Positions 20,977-63,228 of a stretch of DNA of 64,000 nt are shown here, one piece after another. The DNA comes from Cellulomonas fulva. Lineage in GTDB: Bacteria; Actinomycetota; Actinomycetes; Actinomycetales; Cellulomonadaceae. The DNA lies in the NCBI RefSeq assembly GCF_018531375.1, contig NZ_JAHBOH010000001.1, positions 620,001 to 684,000 on the forward strand, in the 5' to 3' direction. The first letter of the stretch is position 1. Each line of letters starts with the position of its first letter. The translations under genes were made by a program, and so were the position numbers. The notes under the pieces are model-generated. The model did not search any database and had not been told where the DNA came from. It worked only from the letters and a program-made list of their open reading frames with translations.

Positions 20977-21990
20977 GTGACCGAGGAGACGCTCGCGGCC
21001 CCCGCGTGGGTGCCGCCCGCGGCGGAGGACGGCTGGGCGCCCGACGTGCTCGGGCCGGGCTACGAGGTCCGGACGCTGCCGCTCGCCGACGACGACGAGG
21101 GCGAGGTCGTCGCGAGCCTGGTCCGCTACCGACCCCCGCGGGACGAGGCGCTGCGCCCCGCGCGGGCCCTGCTGTACGTGCACGGGTGGTCCGACTACTT
21201 CTTCCAGACCGAGCTCGCCGAGCACTGGGACGCCCGGGGCGTCGCGTTCTACGCGCTCGACCTGCGCAAGTACGGGCGCTCCCTGCGCGACCACCAGACG
21301 CCCGGGTACGTCGACGACCTCGTCGTGTACGACGAGGAGCTCGCCGCCGCGCTCGACGCGATCCGGGCCGACCTCGGCGCCCACGTGCGGATCATGCCGA
21401 TGGGGCACTCCACCGGCGGGCTCGTGGTCAGCCTGTGGGCGGACCGGCACCCCGGGCAGATCAGCGGGATCGTGCTCACCAGCCCTTGGCTCGAGCTCCA
21501 GGGGTCGGGGCTCCTGCGGCACGTCAGCAGCCCGGCCATCGCGCAGATCGCCCGGTTCCAGCCCAAGGTCGCGCTGCCGAACGTGGACCCCGGGTTCTAC
21601 AGCCGCACCGTGTCCGCCGCGTCCGGCGGCGAGTGGACGTTCGACGAGCGCTGGCGGCCGACCCCGTCGTTCCCCGTGCGCGCGGGCTGGCTCGCCGCCG
21701 TGATGACGGGGCACGCCCTGGTCGCGCGCGGCCTGCACGTGGACGTGCCGATCCTCATGGCCGCGTCGACCCACTCGCTCATCAGCCCCCGCTGGAGCGA
21801 GGCGATGCGGACCTCCGACGTGGTGCTCGACGTCGAGCTGCTCGCGCGGCGGGCGGTACAGCTGGGGCCCACCGTGACGGTGGTGCGCGTGCGCGGCGGC
21901 GTGCACGACCTGACGCTGTCCGCACCCGACGTGCGCGCACGGTTCTACGCCGAGCTCGACCGCTGGTCCACCGCGTACGCATGGACCTGA
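20977..21990 (+). CDS. Alpha/beta hydrolase, lysophospholipase/monoglyceride-lipase type
   Basis: A 337-residue hydrolase. LLYVHGWSDYFFQ holds the oxyanion region, MPMGHSTGGLV the nucleophile Ser in GHSTG, and VRGGVHDLTLS the likely catalytic His near the C-terminus. An Asp in the segment after DVPILMAASTHS probably completes the triad. No signal peptide is seen, so it is cytoplasmic and could act on lysophospholipids or acylglycerols. GGGGCGGC before the GTG is a plausible ribosome site. The stop codon lies inside a run of six ACCTG repeats. Confidence 0.82.
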   Translation: MTEETLAAPAWVPPAAEDGWAPDVLGPGYEVRTLPLADDDEGEVVASLVRYRPPRDEALRPARALLYVHGWSDYFFQTELAEHWDARGVAFYALDLRKYGRSLRDHQTPGYVDDLVVYDEELAAALDAIRADLGAHVRIMPMGHSTGGLVVSLWADRHPGQISGIVLTSPWLELQGSGLLRHVSSPAIAQIARFQPKVALPNVDPGFYSRTVSAASGGEWTFDERWRPTPSFPVRAGWLAAVMTGHALVARGLHVDVPILMAASTHSLISPRWSEAMRTSDVVLDVELLARRAVQLGPTVTVVRVRGGVHDLTLSAPDVRARFYAELDRWSTAYAWT

Positions 21991-22042: not shown

Positions 22043-23596
22043 TCAGAGACCGGTGCGGCCGGTCGCCTCCGCCAGCGTCGGGCCGCCGTCGCCCAGGCGC
22101 CACGAGCGCCAGCCGTCGATCTCCGCGGTGGACCCGATCGCGGCCGCCGCGGCGTCGCCGGGCTCGACGAACGTGCGGCCGTCCACGAGCTCGATCAGCC
22201 CGTCGTGGCGCAGCGTCGCGACGACGCGCTGGTTGCGGCGTTCGCGCAGCCAGACGAGCGTCGCCAGGGCCCGGCGCTGCTTCGCGACGATGGCGAGCTC
22301 GGGGTAGGGCAGGCCGCGGGGCTCGTGCCGCTGCTCCGGCACCTCGTCGGCGACCACCCCAGCCGGCGGCTCCTCGGCCACGGGCGCGCCGGCAACGGGC
22401 ACCTCGGCGACGGGCACTGCGGCGACGGGCACTGCGGCGACGGGCACTGCGGCGACGGGCTCCGTGGTGGTCGCCCGGGCACCCGGCGCCGGGTGCGGCG
22501 CGGCGCCGGGCGCCGGCGACGTCCCCACGGCCGGGACCTGACGCGTGCGCGTGCTCGCGACCGGCTCACCCGCGACGTCGGCGCTCGCCGTGACAGGGCG
22601 GGCGGCGGGAGAAGGCACGGGGCGGGCGGCGGGGGGAGGAACAGGGGGCGCGGCGGGCGGAACCGCGGGCTGGCGACCCGTGCGGGGCGGCTCGGGGTGC
22701 GAGGGCCGGTTCTCGGGCGGCGCCGCGGGCCGGCCGGCCGACGGGTACGGCAGACCGGCGTGCGTGGCGTTCACCGGCACGCTCGTCGGGAGGTCCGGGA
22801 GCTGGTCCGGGCGGGCCGGTCCGCTGGTCGCGGCCGGGCGCCCGGGCGCCGAGGGGAACGCGGACGACGAGGGCAGACCGGGGGCCGTGCCCGCGGTGGG
22901 GTGCTGGCCGGGGTGGGGAGCCGGCGGGCGGCGCCGCTCGCCCTCGTAGGCCATCGCGGTCGCGAACGACGCCTCGCTCGAGCGGACCAGGCGCAGCGCG
23001 GTGGGCTCCACGGGCCGGCGCACCGTCTCGTGCCGCGCGAGCGGCGAGACCTCGAGCAGCCGGCGGTCGTCGACGCCGCGGACGACGCCGAGCTGGAGGA
23101 TGTCGACGTGCCGGCCGGGGCCGCGCAGGTAGCCGAGGGTGTCACCGGCCTCCGGCGCGACCTCCGAGCACAGCACCAGGAGCCGCACGCCCTCGCGGCG
23201 GCTCGAGGTCATGCCGAACGCGACCTGGTCCCGGAACGCCGCGAAGTCCACCGCGAAGCGGTCCGGGTCCGCGTGGTACGAGCGCGCGAGGTCGGTCGCG
23301 GTCATCCGCGCGGCACCGCCCGCGTGCCGCAGGGAGGCGACGACGGCGTCGTCGTCGAGCACCTGGACCACCTCGATCACCACCACGCGACCCGTCGGGT
23401 CCAGCGCCAGCAGCTCGGGCAGGTCCGCGTGCTCGGGTGCGTCCGAGCGGCGGCGGACCGGGAACAGCGGCTCGCCGGCGATCGCGCTGAGATGGTGCGT
23501 CAGGAGCGACGCGCAGTCGCTCGCGAACGAGCCGGGGAGCGGCTGCATCGGCTGGACGAGGCGCGGGCGGCCCTCGTCGAGCTCGAAGATCGGCAT
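22043..23596 (-). CDS. Protein with nuclease-like N-terminus and predicted C-terminal RAMA domain
   Basis: A 517-residue protein in three parts. Residues 1-200 are a conserved domain with HADLPELLALDPTGRVVVIE, resembling the D...E half of a PD-(D/E)XK nuclease core (Asp58, Glu75), but the third-position Lys is Val. Residues 215-415 are Pro/Ala-rich and low in complexity, including a VPVAA repeat. The C-terminal ~90 residues, with VVATLRHDGLIELVDGRTF, then AAAAAIGSTAEIDGWRSWRL, look like a RAMA domain, a module linked to modified-DNA recognition in restriction systems. The function is unknown. The ATG at 23596 agrees with the conserved MPIFELDEGRPRLV start. Confidence 0.65.
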   Translation of the reverse strand: MPIFELDEGRPRLVQPMQPLPGSFASDCASLLTHHLSAIAGEPLFPVRRRSDAPEHADLPELLALDPTGRVVVIEVVQVLDDDAVVASLRHAGGAARMTATDLARSYHADPDRFAVDFAAFRDQVAFGMTSSRREGVRLLVLCSEVAPEAGDTLGYLRGPGRHVDILQLGVVRGVDDRRLLEVSPLARHETVRRPVEPTALRLVRSSEASFATAMAYEGERRRPPAPHPGQHPTAGTAPGLPSSSAFPSAPGRPAATSGPARPDQLPDLPTSVPVNATHAGLPYPSAGRPAAPPENRPSHPEPPRTGRQPAVPPAAPPVPPPAARPVPSPAARPVTASADVAGEPVASTRTRQVPAVGTSPAPGAAPHPAPGARATTTEPVAAVPVAAVPVAAVPVAEVPVAGAPVAEEPPAGVVADEVPEQRHEPRGLPYPELAIVAKQRRALATLVWLRERRNQRVVATLRHDGLIELVDGRTFVEPGDAAAAAIGSTAEIDGWRSWRLGDGGPTLAEATGRTGL

Positions 23597-23778: not shown

Positions 23779-24090
23779 TCAGGCCTCGCCGGCGGGATCC
23801 GGCCGCAGCGCCGCCTCGACCCGGTCCACCTTGCCCGTCAGCTCACCCGTGCGACCTGGCCGGATGTCCGCCTTGAGCACCAGGCTCACGCGGTTGCCGT
23901 GGCGGCCGACCGCCTCCGTGGCGCGGCGGACGACGTCCATCACCTCGTCCCACTCGCCCTCGAGGGTGGTGAACATCGCGTCGGTCCGGTTCGGCAGGCC
24001 GGACTCGCGGACGATGCGCACCGCGTCCGCGACGGCCTCCGAGACGGACTCGCCGGAGCCGAGCGGGGAGACGGAGAAGGCGACGAGCAT
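23779..24090 (-). CDS. Thiamine-binding protein, MTH1187/UPF0045 family
   Basis: A 103-residue ferredoxin-like-fold protein. [40 protein letters not shown] and [15 protein letters not shown] are the family blocks. Members bind thiamine or a related small ligand in the cytoplasm; no catalytic activity is known. It is divergent from the PPOX-type gene, with a 70-bp gap. Confidence 0.88.
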
Positions 24091-27097: not shown

Positions 27098-30031
27098 TCA
27101 GGCGCCGGGCGTCGTCGCCCCGGCCGTCGGGAGGTGGGCCGCGAGCAGCTCGGCGAGGTGGACGCCCTGGACGTCGGCGAGCTGGTCCGCCTGGGTGCGG
27201 CAGGAGTAGCCGTCCGCGAGGTAGACGTCGCCCGGGGCGGCGGCGCGCAGCGCCGGGAGCAGCGAGCTCTCGGCCACCGCGACCGACACGTCGTAGTGCC
27301 CCTTCTCCATCCCGAAGTTGCCGGCGAGCCCGCAGCAGCCCGCGAGCGCGGAGAACTGCGCGCCCGCCTCGGTGAGCAGGCGGCGGTCCGCGGTCCACGT
27401 CATCACGGAGTAGTGGTGGCAGTGCGGCTGCACCACGGCGGTGACGTCCGAGAGGTCGGGCACCTGCCAGCGGTCGCCGGGGCCGATCGGCGCGGGTGCG
27501 GTGAGCAGCTCGGCGAGCGTGCGGGTCTCCCGCGCGACGGCCACGGCGCGCGGGTCGTCGGGCAGCAGGTCCTGCAGGTCCGAGCGCAGCACGGCCGTGC
27601 ACGACGGCTCGAGCCCGACGATCGGGATCCCGTTGACCGCGAACGGGCCCAGCACCTCGAGCAGGTGCTCGAGCTGGTGCCGGGCGCCCTCGAGCTGCCC
27701 CGTGCTGATCCAGGTGAGGCCGCAGCACGCCTGGTGGTCCGGGACCAGCACCTCGTAGCCGGCGTCGCGGAGCACGGTGACGGCGGCCTTGGCCACCGAC
27801 GGGGCGAGCGCGTCGCTGAACGAGTCGGTCCACAGCAGCACGCGCGGCCGCGCGGGCTCGGCCGGCAGCGGCTGGTCGTCCGCGCGCGAGCTCGGCGTGA
27901 CCGAGACCTGGTCCGCGCCGTCTCGTCGGACCCACGTCCGGAACGGCTCCCGCGCGAAGGTGACCATGCGCCGGCGGGTGTCCATGCCGCCGCCCGCGAG
28001 CACCAGCTTCGCGACGGGCCGGAGGCCGAGCACCGCGTTGGTGAGCGCGGCCAGGCCCGGCAGCCCGGTGACGAGCCGCGCCCAGCGCGGCAGCCAACCG
28101 AGGGCGTAGTGGTTCATCGGGCGCAGCTTGCGACGGTAGGTCTGGTGGAGCACCTCCGCCTTGTAGGTCGCCATGTCGACGCCCGCCGGGCAGTCCGACG
28201 AGCACGCCTTGCAGCTCAGGCACAGGTCGAGCGCCTCGTGCACCTCGGGCGAGGACCAGCCCTGCGAGACGAGCGTGCCGTTCGCCATCTCCTGCAGCAC
28301 GCGGGCGCGGCCGCGCGTGGAGTCCTTCTCGTCCTTCGTCGCCAGGTACGACGGGCACATGAAGCCACCGGCGGCGGTCGAGTCCGCGCGGCACTTGCCC
28401 ACGCCGACGCAGCGGTGCACGGCGGTCGTCAGGTCGCCGGAGTCGTGGGGGAAGGCGAAGCCCGTGGTGGCCAGGACCGGGCGCGCGGCGGGCCGGCGCA
28501 GGTCCGCGTCGATCGCCCGCGGCCGCACCAGGACCCCGGGGTTGAGCAGGTCCCGCGGGTCGAACAGCGACTTGAACGCGCCGAACACCTCGATCGCACG
28601 CTCGGAGTACATGACGGGCAGCAGCTCGGAGCGCGCGCGGCCGTCGCCGTGCTCGCCGGACAGCGACCCGCCGTGCGCCGCGACCAGGTGCGCGGCATCG
28701 GTCATGAAGGACCGCAGCGCGTCGCCGGAGCGCTCGAGCGGGATGTCGAGCCGCAGGTGCACGCATCCGTCACCGAAGTGCCCGTACGCGAGCCCGTCCA
28801 CGCGGTGCCGCGCCATGAGCGCCTCGAGCTCGCGCAGGTAGGCGCCCAGCCGCTCGGGCGGCACCGCCGAGTCCTCGAACCCGGGCCACGCCTGCTCGCC
28901 CGAGGGGGTGCGTCCGCCGAGGCCCGCACCGTCCTCGCGGATGCGCCACATGGCGGTCGCCTGCGGCCCCGGCGGGAACAGCCCGACGGCGGTGGTGCCG
29001 GAGTCGGCCGCGAGCGCACCCGCCCGCTCCATCGCCTCGTCGAGGGTCTCGCCCCCCACCTCGACCATGAGCCAGCCCGCACCGGGCGGCAGGTCCGGCA
29101 CCGCGGACGCGCCACGCACGCGCCGCACCACGTCGACCAGGCGCGCGTCCATGCCCTCGATCGCGATGGGCCGGTGCGCCAGCAGCGCGGGCACCGCGTC
29201 GGCGGCGGCGGGCATGTCCGGGTAGCCGAGCACGACGAGCACGGGCGCGGCGGCCACGGGGACCAGCCGGACGGTCGCCTCGAGGAGCGTGCCGACCGTG
29301 CCCTCGGTGCCGACGAGCGCCTTGGCGAGGTCGGTGCCGTTCTCCGGCAGCAGGTGCTCGAGCGAGTAGCCGGAGACCTGGCGGCCGAACCGGCCGAGCT
29401 CGGTGCGCAGCAGGTCCAGGTTGCCGCGCACCAGGTCGCCCAGGCCGGGGACCGCGTCGAGGGCTCCCGCGCCCGCGCGGGCGGCGACCCGGCGGCCCGT
29501 GCCGTCGACCAGGTCGAGCGCGAGCACGTTGTCCGCGGTGCGGCCGTAGGCCACGGCGCGCGGGCCGCAGGCGTTGTTGCCGATCATCCCGCCGAGCGTG
29601 GCGCGGGTCCACGTCGACGGGTCCGGCCCGAACCGCAGCCCGTGGGGTGCCGCGGCCTTCTGCACCGCGGCCATGACCACGCCCGGCTCGACGCGGGCGG
29701 TGCGCGTCTCCGGGTCGAGCTCGAGGATCCGGTTGACGTGCCGCGAGAAGTCCAGGACCACGCCCGGGCCGACCGCGTTGCCCGCGACCGAGGTGCCGCC
29801 GCCGCGGGAGGTGATCGGCACGCCCGCCTCGCGCGCGACGGCCAGCGCCGCCTCGACGTCGTCGGGGTCCTGCGGGAAGACGACGACCTGCGGCACCACC
29901 CGGTAGTTCGACGCGTCGGTCGAGTACTCGGCCCGGCGGCGCGTGGAATCGTCGACCGCCCCCCGCACGGCGGACCGCAGCGCGGCGACGACGTCGGTCC
30001 CCACACGGTTCTCGTCGGCCAGGGCAGTCAC
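27098..30031 (-). CDS. FAD-linked oxidoreductase with Fe-S and CCG domains (D-2-hydroxyacid dehydrogenase type)
   Basis: A 977-residue fusion. The N-terminal FAD-binding PCMH domain contains VPITSRGGGTSVAGNAVGPG and TLGGMIGNNACGPRAVAYGR. A FAD-linked oxidase C-domain follows, then an Fe-S domain with Cys groups CVGVGKCRAD and CLSCKACSSDCPAG. Last come GlpC-like cysteine-rich motifs, CCGLTW and AGCCGLAGNFGMEKGHYD. Such one-piece enzymes oxidise D-lactate or D-2-hydroxyglutarate and pass electrons onward at the membrane. The exact substrate is not visible. The GTG at 30031 places the conserved start correctly; AGGA lies about nine bases upstream. Confidence 0.9.
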   Translation of the reverse strand: MTALADENRVGTDVVAALRSAVRGAVDDSTRRRAEYSTDASNYRVVPQVVVFPQDPDDVEAALAVAREAGVPITSRGGGTSVAGNAVGPGVVLDFSRHVNRILELDPETRTARVEPGVVMAAVQKAAAPHGLRFGPDPSTWTRATLGGMIGNNACGPRAVAYGRTADNVLALDLVDGTGRRVAARAGAGALDAVPGLGDLVRGNLDLLRTELGRFGRQVSGYSLEHLLPENGTDLAKALVGTEGTVGTLLEATVRLVPVAAAPVLVVLGYPDMPAAADAVPALLAHRPIAIEGMDARLVDVVRRVRGASAVPDLPPGAGWLMVEVGGETLDEAMERAGALAADSGTTAVGLFPPGPQATAMWRIREDGAGLGGRTPSGEQAWPGFEDSAVPPERLGAYLRELEALMARHRVDGLAYGHFGDGCVHLRLDIPLERSGDALRSFMTDAAHLVAAHGGSLSGEHGDGRARSELLPVMYSERAIEVFGAFKSLFDPRDLLNPGVLVRPRAIDADLRRPAARPVLATTGFAFPHDSGDLTTAVHRCVGVGKCRADSTAAGGFMCPSYLATKDEKDSTRGRARVLQEMANGTLVSQGWSSPEVHEALDLCLSCKACSSDCPAGVDMATYKAEVLHQTYRRKLRPMNHYALGWLPRWARLVTGLPGLAALTNAVLGLRPVAKLVLAGGGMDTRRRMVTFAREPFRTWVRRDGADQVSVTPSSRADDQPLPAEPARPRVLLWTDSFSDALAPSVAKAAVTVLRDAGYEVLVPDHQACCGLTWISTGQLEGARHQLEHLLEVLGPFAVNGIPIVGLEPSCTAVLRSDLQDLLPDDPRAVAVARETRTLAELLTAPAPIGPGDRWQVPDLSDVTAVVQPHCHHYSVMTWTADRRLLTEAGAQFSALAGCCGLAGNFGMEKGHYDVSVAVAESSLLPALRAAAPGDVYLADGYSCRTQADQLADVQGVHLAELLAAHLPTAGATTPGA

Positions 30032-30142
30032 GGGGGCATCCTCGCACCCCGCCCCGGGTGCCCCTCGGGACCTCCCGCGGACCGGACGCCCGGCCGGCGG
30101 ACTCCTCACCCGCATCACCCCGCCCTCTTCTGCCGAGCGCCC

Positions 30143-51727: not shown

Positions 51728-51733
51728 CTGTGG

Positions 51734-51806
51734 AGCCGCCTAAGGGAATCGAACCCTTGACCTTCTCATTACGAGTGAGACGCTCTGCCGACTGAGCTAA
51801 GGCGGC
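51734..51806 (-). tRNA. tRNA-Thr, anticodon CGT
   Basis: The minus strand reads GCCGCCTTAGCTCAGTCGG at the 5' end and closes with a 7-bp acceptor stem, T-arm GGTTCGATTCC and discriminator T. The anticodon loop CTCGTAA gives CGT, which reads ACG. CCA is encoded just outside, at 51731-51733. All arms fold well. Confidence 0.97.
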
Positions 51807-62037: not shown

Positions 62038-62346
62038 TCAGTCCCAGTCCCACGTGCCGGCGAGCCGCTGCTTGGCGGCCTCGTCCGTGCCCTCGTACGT
62101 CGCGCGCACCTGGCGCAGCGCGGTCGCCGCCCCGGCCATCTCCGCGGACCCGCCGCGCAGCAGGCCCTCCACGACCGAGCGGATCTCCTCGAACGAGGTG
62201 GACACCGCGCCCCCCGCGAACGAGAACTGGGACGGACGGACGCTCAGCGAGCCCGCCGAGTCCGCCGCCGTCCGCGTCACGTCCGCGACGCCGTCCCAGC
62301 GTTTCGCGTCGTCCGTCAGTGCCTGCATCGCCGCCTCGAACGTCAT
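62038..62346 (-). CDS. ESX-associated small helical protein (EspC/DUF2580-like)
   Basis: A 102-residue two-helix protein. It begins MTFEAAMQALTDDAKRWDGV and ends ATALRQVRATYEGTDEAAKQ before RLAGTWDWD. The YEGTD segment is typical of small secreted ESX partners. GGGGGAG precedes the ATG at 62346. It is likely a substrate or chaperone-like partner of the next gene product. Confidence 0.72.
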   Translation of the reverse strand: MTFEAAMQALTDDAKRWDGVADVTRTAADSAGSLSVRPSQFSFAGGAVSTSFEEIRSVVEGLLRGGSAEMAGAATALRQVRATYEGTDEAAKQRLAGTWDWD

Positions 62347-62410
62347 GCGCTCCCCCTCTCGGCCGTCCGGTGCTCACCGCACCGGCCGCACTCGGTCGTG
62401 AAATCGGTCG

Positions 62411-62458
62411 GTCGTCGTGTCGGTCGTCGTGCCAGTCGTCGTGTCAGTCGTCGTGCCG
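62411..62458. repeat. Four 12-bp tandem repeats
   Basis: GTCGTCGTGYCR occurs at 62411, 62423, 62435 and 62447 in the gap between two genes of the ESX-like operon. No gene or hairpin accounts for it. Confidence 0.9.
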
Positions 62459-62472
62459 GTCGGTCCGGCTGG

Positions 62473-63228
62473 TCACTCGTGCAGGAAGCCGGCCCGGCGC
62501 GCGAGCGCGTCCGGGTCGGCGAACAGCCGCGCCGCGTCGGCCAGCGCCGTGCCGTCGAACGGCTGCTCGGGCACCGTGCGCGTCGCCGCCTGCACGGCCG
62601 CCCCGAGCGCCTCGGTGAGCTCGCGGCTCAGGTTGAAGGGGTGCGTGCGCGCGGCCCACTGCTCGTCGGCCTCGACGCGGACCAGGACGCCCGCGCCGTT
62701 GACCGCGGCGGTCACGTGCCCGGCGGCGCTGCGTCCCTCGTGCTCCGCGGCCGCCCGCTCCGCCACCTGGTCGAACGCGGTGTCGAGCCGGCTGTTCACC
62801 GTCCGCAGCAGCTCGGTGAGCTCGTCGATCGAGCGGCGGACGTCCACCCGGTCGCCGGACTGCGCGGCGAGCTCGCGCAGACGGTCGGTGAGCGACTCGA
62901 CGCCCGTGGCGGCGGGACGCGCGCGGGGAGCCGGCTCGTCGAGCGACTGCACCGTCGCCTCGCCCCAGAGCCGCGCCCGCTCGGCGCCCGCGCTCCCGTA
63001 CGCCTCGAGGACGGCGGCACCCAGGCCGGCGGCGCCGTGGTGGGTCGCCCACCCGTCGCGCACGACGACGTCCTGGGGCGCGCCCTGCGCGTCGATCCGC
63101 ACCTGCACCGTCCCGGACGGGTCCGCGCCCGTCACCGGCCCGGCGGCGCGGACCGCCTCCTCGTACCGCTGGGTCGACACGTCGATCGACTCGCGCAGCT
63201 CCGCGAGGTCCTCGCGCGGATCCGTCAC
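62473..63228 (-). CDS. YbaB/EbfC-like protein of the ESX-like operon
   Basis: A 251-residue protein with two YbaB-like halves: GTVQVRIDAQGAPQDVVVRD, then HVTAAVNGAGVLVRVEADEQ. A helical stretch lies between them. Proteins of this type are often encoded beside actinobacterial ESX genes. It may bind DNA or act as a scaffold; this is not known. GTG at 63228; GGGGG lies upstream. Confidence 0.72.
   Translation of the reverse strand: MTDPREDLAELRESIDVSTQRYEEAVRAAGPVTGADPSGTVQVRIDAQGAPQDVVVRDGWATHHGAAGLGAAVLEAYGSAGAERARLWGEATVQSLDEPAPRARPAATGVESLTDRLRELAAQSGDRVDVRRSIDELTELLRTVNSRLDTAFDQVAERAAAEHEGRSAAGHVTAAVNGAGVLVRVEADEQWAARTHPFNLSRELTEALGAAVQAATRTVPEQPFDGTALADAARLFADPDALARRAGFLHE

Follow-up and report, generated by a model that had tools for sequence, protein, structure and literature searches.

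A 517-aa protein of Cellulomonas fulva, encoded in a window of 64,000 bp (contig NZ_JAHBOH010000001.1, positions 620,001 to 684,000), joins a nuclease-like domain without the catalytic lysine to a RAMA domain in which the serines of the usual DNA-contact site are replaced, and it belongs to a family that is present in nearly all genomes of its genus. We put the probability at about 0.5 that it is a core Cellulomonas protein, a disarmed nuclease-RAMA protein which likely acts as a non-cutting, tethered adaptor and which comes from a compact, defence-type ancestor. The adaptor step, reached by elimination and from the conserved surfaces, is likely, with the partner being hypothetical. We are slightly more hesitant about a wider reading, in which a defence protein of the nuclease-RAMA kind lost both its cutting ability and its DNA grip, and then spread to fixation among the core genes of Cellulomonadaceae-type actinobacteria; it would now be a domesticated "pseudo-restriction enzyme" whose tether is long and variable.

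The original prediction of a nuclease-like core and a RAMA-like domain joined by a Pro/Ala linker was borne out by structure prediction, which recovered both the RAMA fold and the endonuclease-like core (Table 1). The RAMA part scored 37 bits with the RAMA profile (PF18755), above the Pfam cut-off of 35.2, and its predicted fold is that of the RAMA domains of CcrM (C-terminal, 6pbd) and MPND (7ydt/7ydw). The nuclease part showed a predicted PD-(D/E)XK core fold, with NucS/EndoMS as the best structural matches (2vld, 5gke and 5gkj), and the structural alignment with 2vld begins at 2vld residue 126. PF01939 (NucS/EndoMS) gave no match at E 5 in the 517-aa protein; no NCBIfam match was detected for the protein either. 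The linker, with 55 Pro and 47 Ala of 228, is probably disordered according to the predicted structure, and in 78 Cellulomonas-type relatives it can be as short as 26 or as long as 369 residues (median 159). One copy of the gene and one RAMA domain over threshold were found in the genome of the window.

Table 1. Features of the nuclease-RAMA gene and of its conserved flanks, in window coordinates
Feature	Position	Strand	Remarks
Coding sequence, 517 aa: pseudonuclease, Pro/Ala linker, RAMA	22043..23596	(-)	
Predicted NucS/EndoMS-type nuclease domain, PD-(D/E)XK fold, residues about 15-189	23030..23554	(-)	
Active-site remnant, residues 61-77: E61, E75, V77	23366..23416	(-)	
RRPVEPTALRLV, conserved short motif, residues 193-204, directly after the nuclease domain	22985..23020	(-)	
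Pro/Ala-rich linker of variable length, residues 205-431	22304..22984	(-)	
RAMA domain, residues 432-516	22049..22303	(-)	profile and fold
E-P-G, residues 478-480, site of the DNA-contact serines (S-P-S) of the intact family	22157..22165	(-)	
Hairpin, residues 451-457, invariant Arg 451, 453, 454 and 457	22226..22246	(-)	
Alpha/beta hydrolase	20977..21990	(+)	convergent side in 19/20 genus loci; few kb off in two
Thiamine-binding family protein (PF01910)	23779..24090	(-)	18/20 genus loci, 17 on the same strand
FAD-linked oxidase with 4Fe-4S and CCG domains	27098..30115	(-)	16/20 genus loci, within 18 kb

Compact actinobacterial nuclease-RAMA proteins (P0141 and its relatives) have the same domain order and are homologous over both domains, but they are mostly of about 300 aa, with a short linker (14–61 residues in 66 relatives, median 25), an intact active site and a patchy presence. 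Seven catalytic positions (E25, E29, D60, E74, K76, Q86 and Y90) were compared in 79 Cellulomonas-type and 66 compact proteins, selected from 260, together with 31 loci of other relatives, the homologues being taken from among the matches listed in each search. All seven positions were intact in 66/66 compact members, against none, one or two in 24, 49 and 6 of the Cellulomonas-type rows and one or two in 24 and 7 of the other relatives. The catalytic lysine, present in 66/66 compact proteins, was found in 0/79 Cellulomonas-type rows (78 with another letter and one gap, that of P0139, which has no RAMA motif and so is absent from the RAMA counts, n = 78) and in 0/31 of the others, and the equivalents of Gln86, Tyr90 and Glu25 were nearly all gone from the dead relatives. 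The window protein itself reads E...E.V where NucS-type PD-(D/E)XK domains have the catalytic D...E.K: residue 61 is Glu where the intact family has Asp, residue 77 is Val instead of Lys, and residue 75 is Glu, with D or A in others. When a compact member was aligned to 2vld from sequence alone (E 0.75), its D, E and K fell on the NucS residues.

Thus the suspicion of a catalytically dead protein, which had been raised from the valine at the place of the third-position lysine, appears to apply to the whole Cellulomonas type and to the other dead relatives, while the alternative offered with it, a modified-base-sensing nuclease, would have to do without that lysine in every one of the 79 + 31 rows. 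A type IV modification-dependent restriction enzyme combines a working nuclease with a modified-DNA reader, and here the active-site residues are lost. It is hardly credible that the nuclease is still active with rearranged catalytic residues: acidic residues do persist at two positions in most Cellulomonas-type relatives, but 9/78 rows have A, S, T or V at position 75, and 9/78 have A, H, T or Y at position 61, in addition to the missing lysine and to the loss of the Gln86, Tyr90 and Glu25 equivalents.

In a tree of 72 of the 176 rows, built without the seven catalytic columns, the presence or absence of the lysine amounts to one change, and the compact family makes up one side of a 100/100 branch. 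Five dead Actinomycetales rows adjoin the compact family on long branches, which calls for a long-branch warning, so a single loss at one time is not proven. The ancestor would have been an active nuclease, because the compact family and archaeal NucS have the same active-site residues.

Compact copies were next to restriction or defence genes in 2 of the 3 inspected loci. In L150, the intact compact gene and a type ISP restriction-modification gene share a strand and are a single base apart, and the two (L150:1517-7334) are a possible two-gene system. In L101, from Rhodococcoides fascians (L101:1217-16836), the compact gene lies amid helicase-nuclease genes, 4/5 of the neighbours tested matching PADLOC models; the neighbours include an AAA helicase with an MTES_1575 nuclease domain, a PbeA-like helicase, a UvrD helicase and a DruE-like gene. 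At the third locus, L149, one neighbour is an NYN/OST-HTH protein and no PADLOC match was detected among three neighbours tested, so the defence origin rests on two loci. PDC-S11, a candidate single-gene system of PADLOC, gave E 3.4e-24 for the compact nuclease domain, compared with E 6e-5 for the window protein (residues 61–194, model positions 59–191 of 358); the latter match is short of the coverage of most of the model that a member would have. The two halves of L101 are matched by the PDC-S11 and PDC-S14 profiles, and PF01939 matched this compact relative at E 0.027, under the cut-off. At E 0.001, the compact profile had matches in 35/346 phylum genomes, with full-length ones in 2. The compact intact family is a good candidate for defence nucleases.

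As for the RAMA domain, CcrM contacts DNA phosphates through Ser315, His317, Asn330, Trp332 and Arg350 and binds DNA nonspecifically, according to PMC6787082; according to PMC9963953, Ser113, Ser115 and Trp135 of MPND touch the backbone, alanine mutants nearly lose binding, and binding is unaffected by 6mA. PDB sequence searches that started from the full or the compact alignment, from a single compact protein or from the RAMA part only recovered neither MPND nor CcrM, and thus the residues were mapped by motif spacing, along with the predicted folds. The compact family has S-P-S and DGW spaced as in CcrM, with 17 residues from the first S of S-x-S to the W of xGW (CcrM Ser315-Trp332; P0141 258-275).

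The compact positions 258, 260, 275 and 290 are S59/T5/A2, S66, W66 and R66 (n = 66). In the Cellulomonas type (n = 78), the columns of the first two (478 and 480) read D68/E8/S2 and D58/G10/S8/N1/C1, that of 275 reads W77/R1, and that of 290 reads T48/A19, with R in 2. By this spacing-based mapping, the serine sites of CcrM and MPND hold D/E in 76/78 and D/G in 68/78 Cellulomonas-type proteins; in 32 other relatives the first serine column is H19/D10/S2/N1. Because the contact residues are mostly replaced, RAMA of the Cellulomonas type probably has a weaker or modified form of the usual DNA grip. The changed residues are not proof of lost DNA binding: W496, W499 and the arginine hairpin persist, with Arg 451, 453, 454 and 457 each found in 78/78, and DNA may be bound in some other manner. 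In four dead relatives from one family of the same order (L169, L170, L172 and L173) the RAMA motif is eroded, with no DGWxxW, and the N-terminal domain is still present, adjoining the FAD/FeS oxidase gene.

These substitutions bear on the idea of a dead sensor, in which RAMA would read a modified base, such as N6-methyladenine, for the pseudonuclease to relay the signal. RAMA domains are annotated as modified-DNA readers, NCBI calls several of the relatives "restriction system modified-DNA reader domain-containing", the DGWxxW motif is retained in the Cellulomonas type, and the window's own genome has three matches to PF02384 (N6 methyltransferase family), with none to PF01555. We nevertheless consider such a sensor quite unlikely, as the intact family's Ser258 and Ser260 gave way mostly to acidic residues or Gly and its Arg290 mostly to Thr or Ala, and as the published domains bind DNA independently of 6mA (MPND) or nonspecifically (CcrM). 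The hosts also speak against it. Out of 72 good genomes of the genus, PF01555 was detected in 18 and PF02384 in 48, with neither in 19; of these 19, one has PF02086 and 6 others have PF07669, which leaves 12 genomes that match none of the four adenine-methyltransferase families and all keep the gene. Of the catalytically dead sensor first envisaged, then, the dead part stands and the sensor part is weakened.

Perhaps both domains hold plain DNA uncut and the linker bridges two sites, as in a sequence-independent DNA-binding or nucleoid-associated protein. Both folds do resemble DNA-binding domains, and the invariant arginines of the hairpin would suit such a role. We regard it as unlikely, since acidic residues or Gly have mostly replaced the phosphate-contact serines and since both domains are themselves acidic or near neutral, with K+R against D+E of 18 vs 25 in the nuclease domain and 12 vs 11 in RAMA, though the compact P0141 is no more basic (20 vs 29 and 10 vs 15, respectively).

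The predicted likeness to the C-terminal nuclease domain of NucS/EndoMS, whose active site the window protein has lost, raises another role, that of a pseudoenzyme which takes up the DNA or the partner of the cell's true NucS mismatch-repair nuclease, or of restriction nucleases, and so regulates them. One canonical NucS is encoded in the same genome (PF01939, E 2.7e-41), and NucS/EndoMS gave the best structural matches. On the other hand, nucS is far off (C1:29572 vs 642046), the window protein has no more than about 20 residues ahead of its nuclease domain, too few for the N-terminal domain of NucS, and a contact with NucS is purely hypothetical; we find this role distinctly improbable.

Purifying selection acts on the nuclease domain and on RAMA alike, as estimated (Nei-Gojobori) from eight close pairs of relatives, one of which (L037/L040) is named Cellulomonas and none of which includes the window's gene: dN/dS was 0.04–0.20 in the nuclease domain and 0.00–0.24 in RAMA, compared with 0.13–0.79 in the linker. 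A gene in decay would not give such low values in the folded domains. Since the cutting residues are gone and most of the DNA-gripping ones are changed, and yet the folds are under selection, the protein is likely a defence-type nuclease that was disarmed and has taken on a different function, probably that of binding a partner molecule.

Arg113 and Arg122 are invariant in the Cellulomonas type (79/79) and not in the compact or other groups. Directly after the nuclease domain, R193, R194, E197 and P198 of the RRxVEP motif are identical in 79/79 Cellulomonas-type proteins; in the three-group alignment the motif was found in 78/79 with one gap, and it is not conserved in the other groups. Residues 193–204, which lie in a low-confidence and probably disordered stretch (pLDDT below 50 at 192–210), are described here as a candidate docking motif. 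For the adaptor, we propose that the pseudonuclease domain binds a partner through Arg113, Arg122 and RRxVEP, surfaces that are invariant in the Cellulomonas type and not in the compact family; that RAMA would be a second docking module, using its invariant arginine hairpin, rather than a gripper of modified DNA; and that the linker may set the reach between the two. Against the adaptor, other dead relatives conserve neither these surface residues of Cellulomonas nor RRxVEP, and some relatives at the level of the order, L169 and L172 among them, have an eroded RAMA motif.

The family was detected in 77/81 genomes of the genus Cellulomonas, and in 71/72 of the good-quality ones (completeness of 90% or more, contamination of 5% or less). 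Across the GTDB family, 207/221 genomes, 188/196 good ones, and 22/25 genera have it. In the order, matches were found in 66/347 drawn genomes (64/330 good), some of them RAMA-only matches in other proteins; several match just the RAMA part of long frames (f76) and were not counted as family. Over 80/85 loci, the named relatives come from Cellulomonas, Oerskovia, Cellulosimicrobium, Isoptericola, Promicromonospora, Myceligenerans and Luteimicrobium, as well as from Sanguibacter, Actinotalea, Antribacter, Actinomyces and Gleimia, with the intact form in Rhodococcoides.

The locus is conserved as well. At least one of the three flank genes of Table 1 was kept, within the stretch compared, in 29/31 loci, mostly outside the genus; the two loci without them are that of the active-type relative L101 and L105, where the gene is at a contig edge (the L180 sequence is the same as that of L105). 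Further out in the order, at least one flank gene was present in 14/14 non-compact loci with enough flank, a tally that includes L183, in which the N-terminal domain is absent. A defence gene would be marked by a defence neighbourhood and patchy presence, and what we found are housekeeping-type flanks and a gene in 71/72 good genomes. Nine neighbours in the window were searched against PADLOC at 1e-5 and gave no defence match except for an ABC transporter (mads_3/mads_8). A mobile element was dropped as an explanation, the flanks being conserved, and a toxin-antitoxin role was dropped since no such partner gene was seen adjoining.

Elsewhere in the window, all on the (-) strand, a tRNA-Thr (cgt) lies at 51731-51806, small frames at 62038-63228 recall, by eye, WXG100/type VII secretion-associated proteins, and two short frames at 2222-2877 resemble, also by eye, a PIN-domain toxin and Phd-type antitoxin pair.

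The combination of a nuclease with RAMA is not new as a kind, contrary to what had been supposed: PDC-S11 of PADLOC matches the nuclease domain, and Mrr-RAMA-NTPase and GIY-YIG-RAMA fusions are mentioned in PMC11037411. Those fusions likewise combine nuclease and RAMA, but with other nuclease types or extra domains, and where that source mentions them it calls them neither dead nor core genes. In the literature searched, outside which lie most subscription papers and all of bioRxiv, we found no paper with both Cellulomonas and a RAMA domain, no NucS-RAMA fusion, no use of the phrase "modified-DNA reader domain-containing" and no core, doubly disarmed nuclease-RAMA form.

Kinases and proteases offer well-known examples of pseudoenzymes. 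It is unusual for a nuclease of the restriction type to lose catalysis and then to become near-universal in its bacterial family, and the intact sister family provides a built-in comparison for the disarmed form. The NCBI label carried by several of the relatives may mislead for this clade. If the reading is true, the domesticated "pseudo-restriction enzyme" would perform a previously undescribed cellular job.
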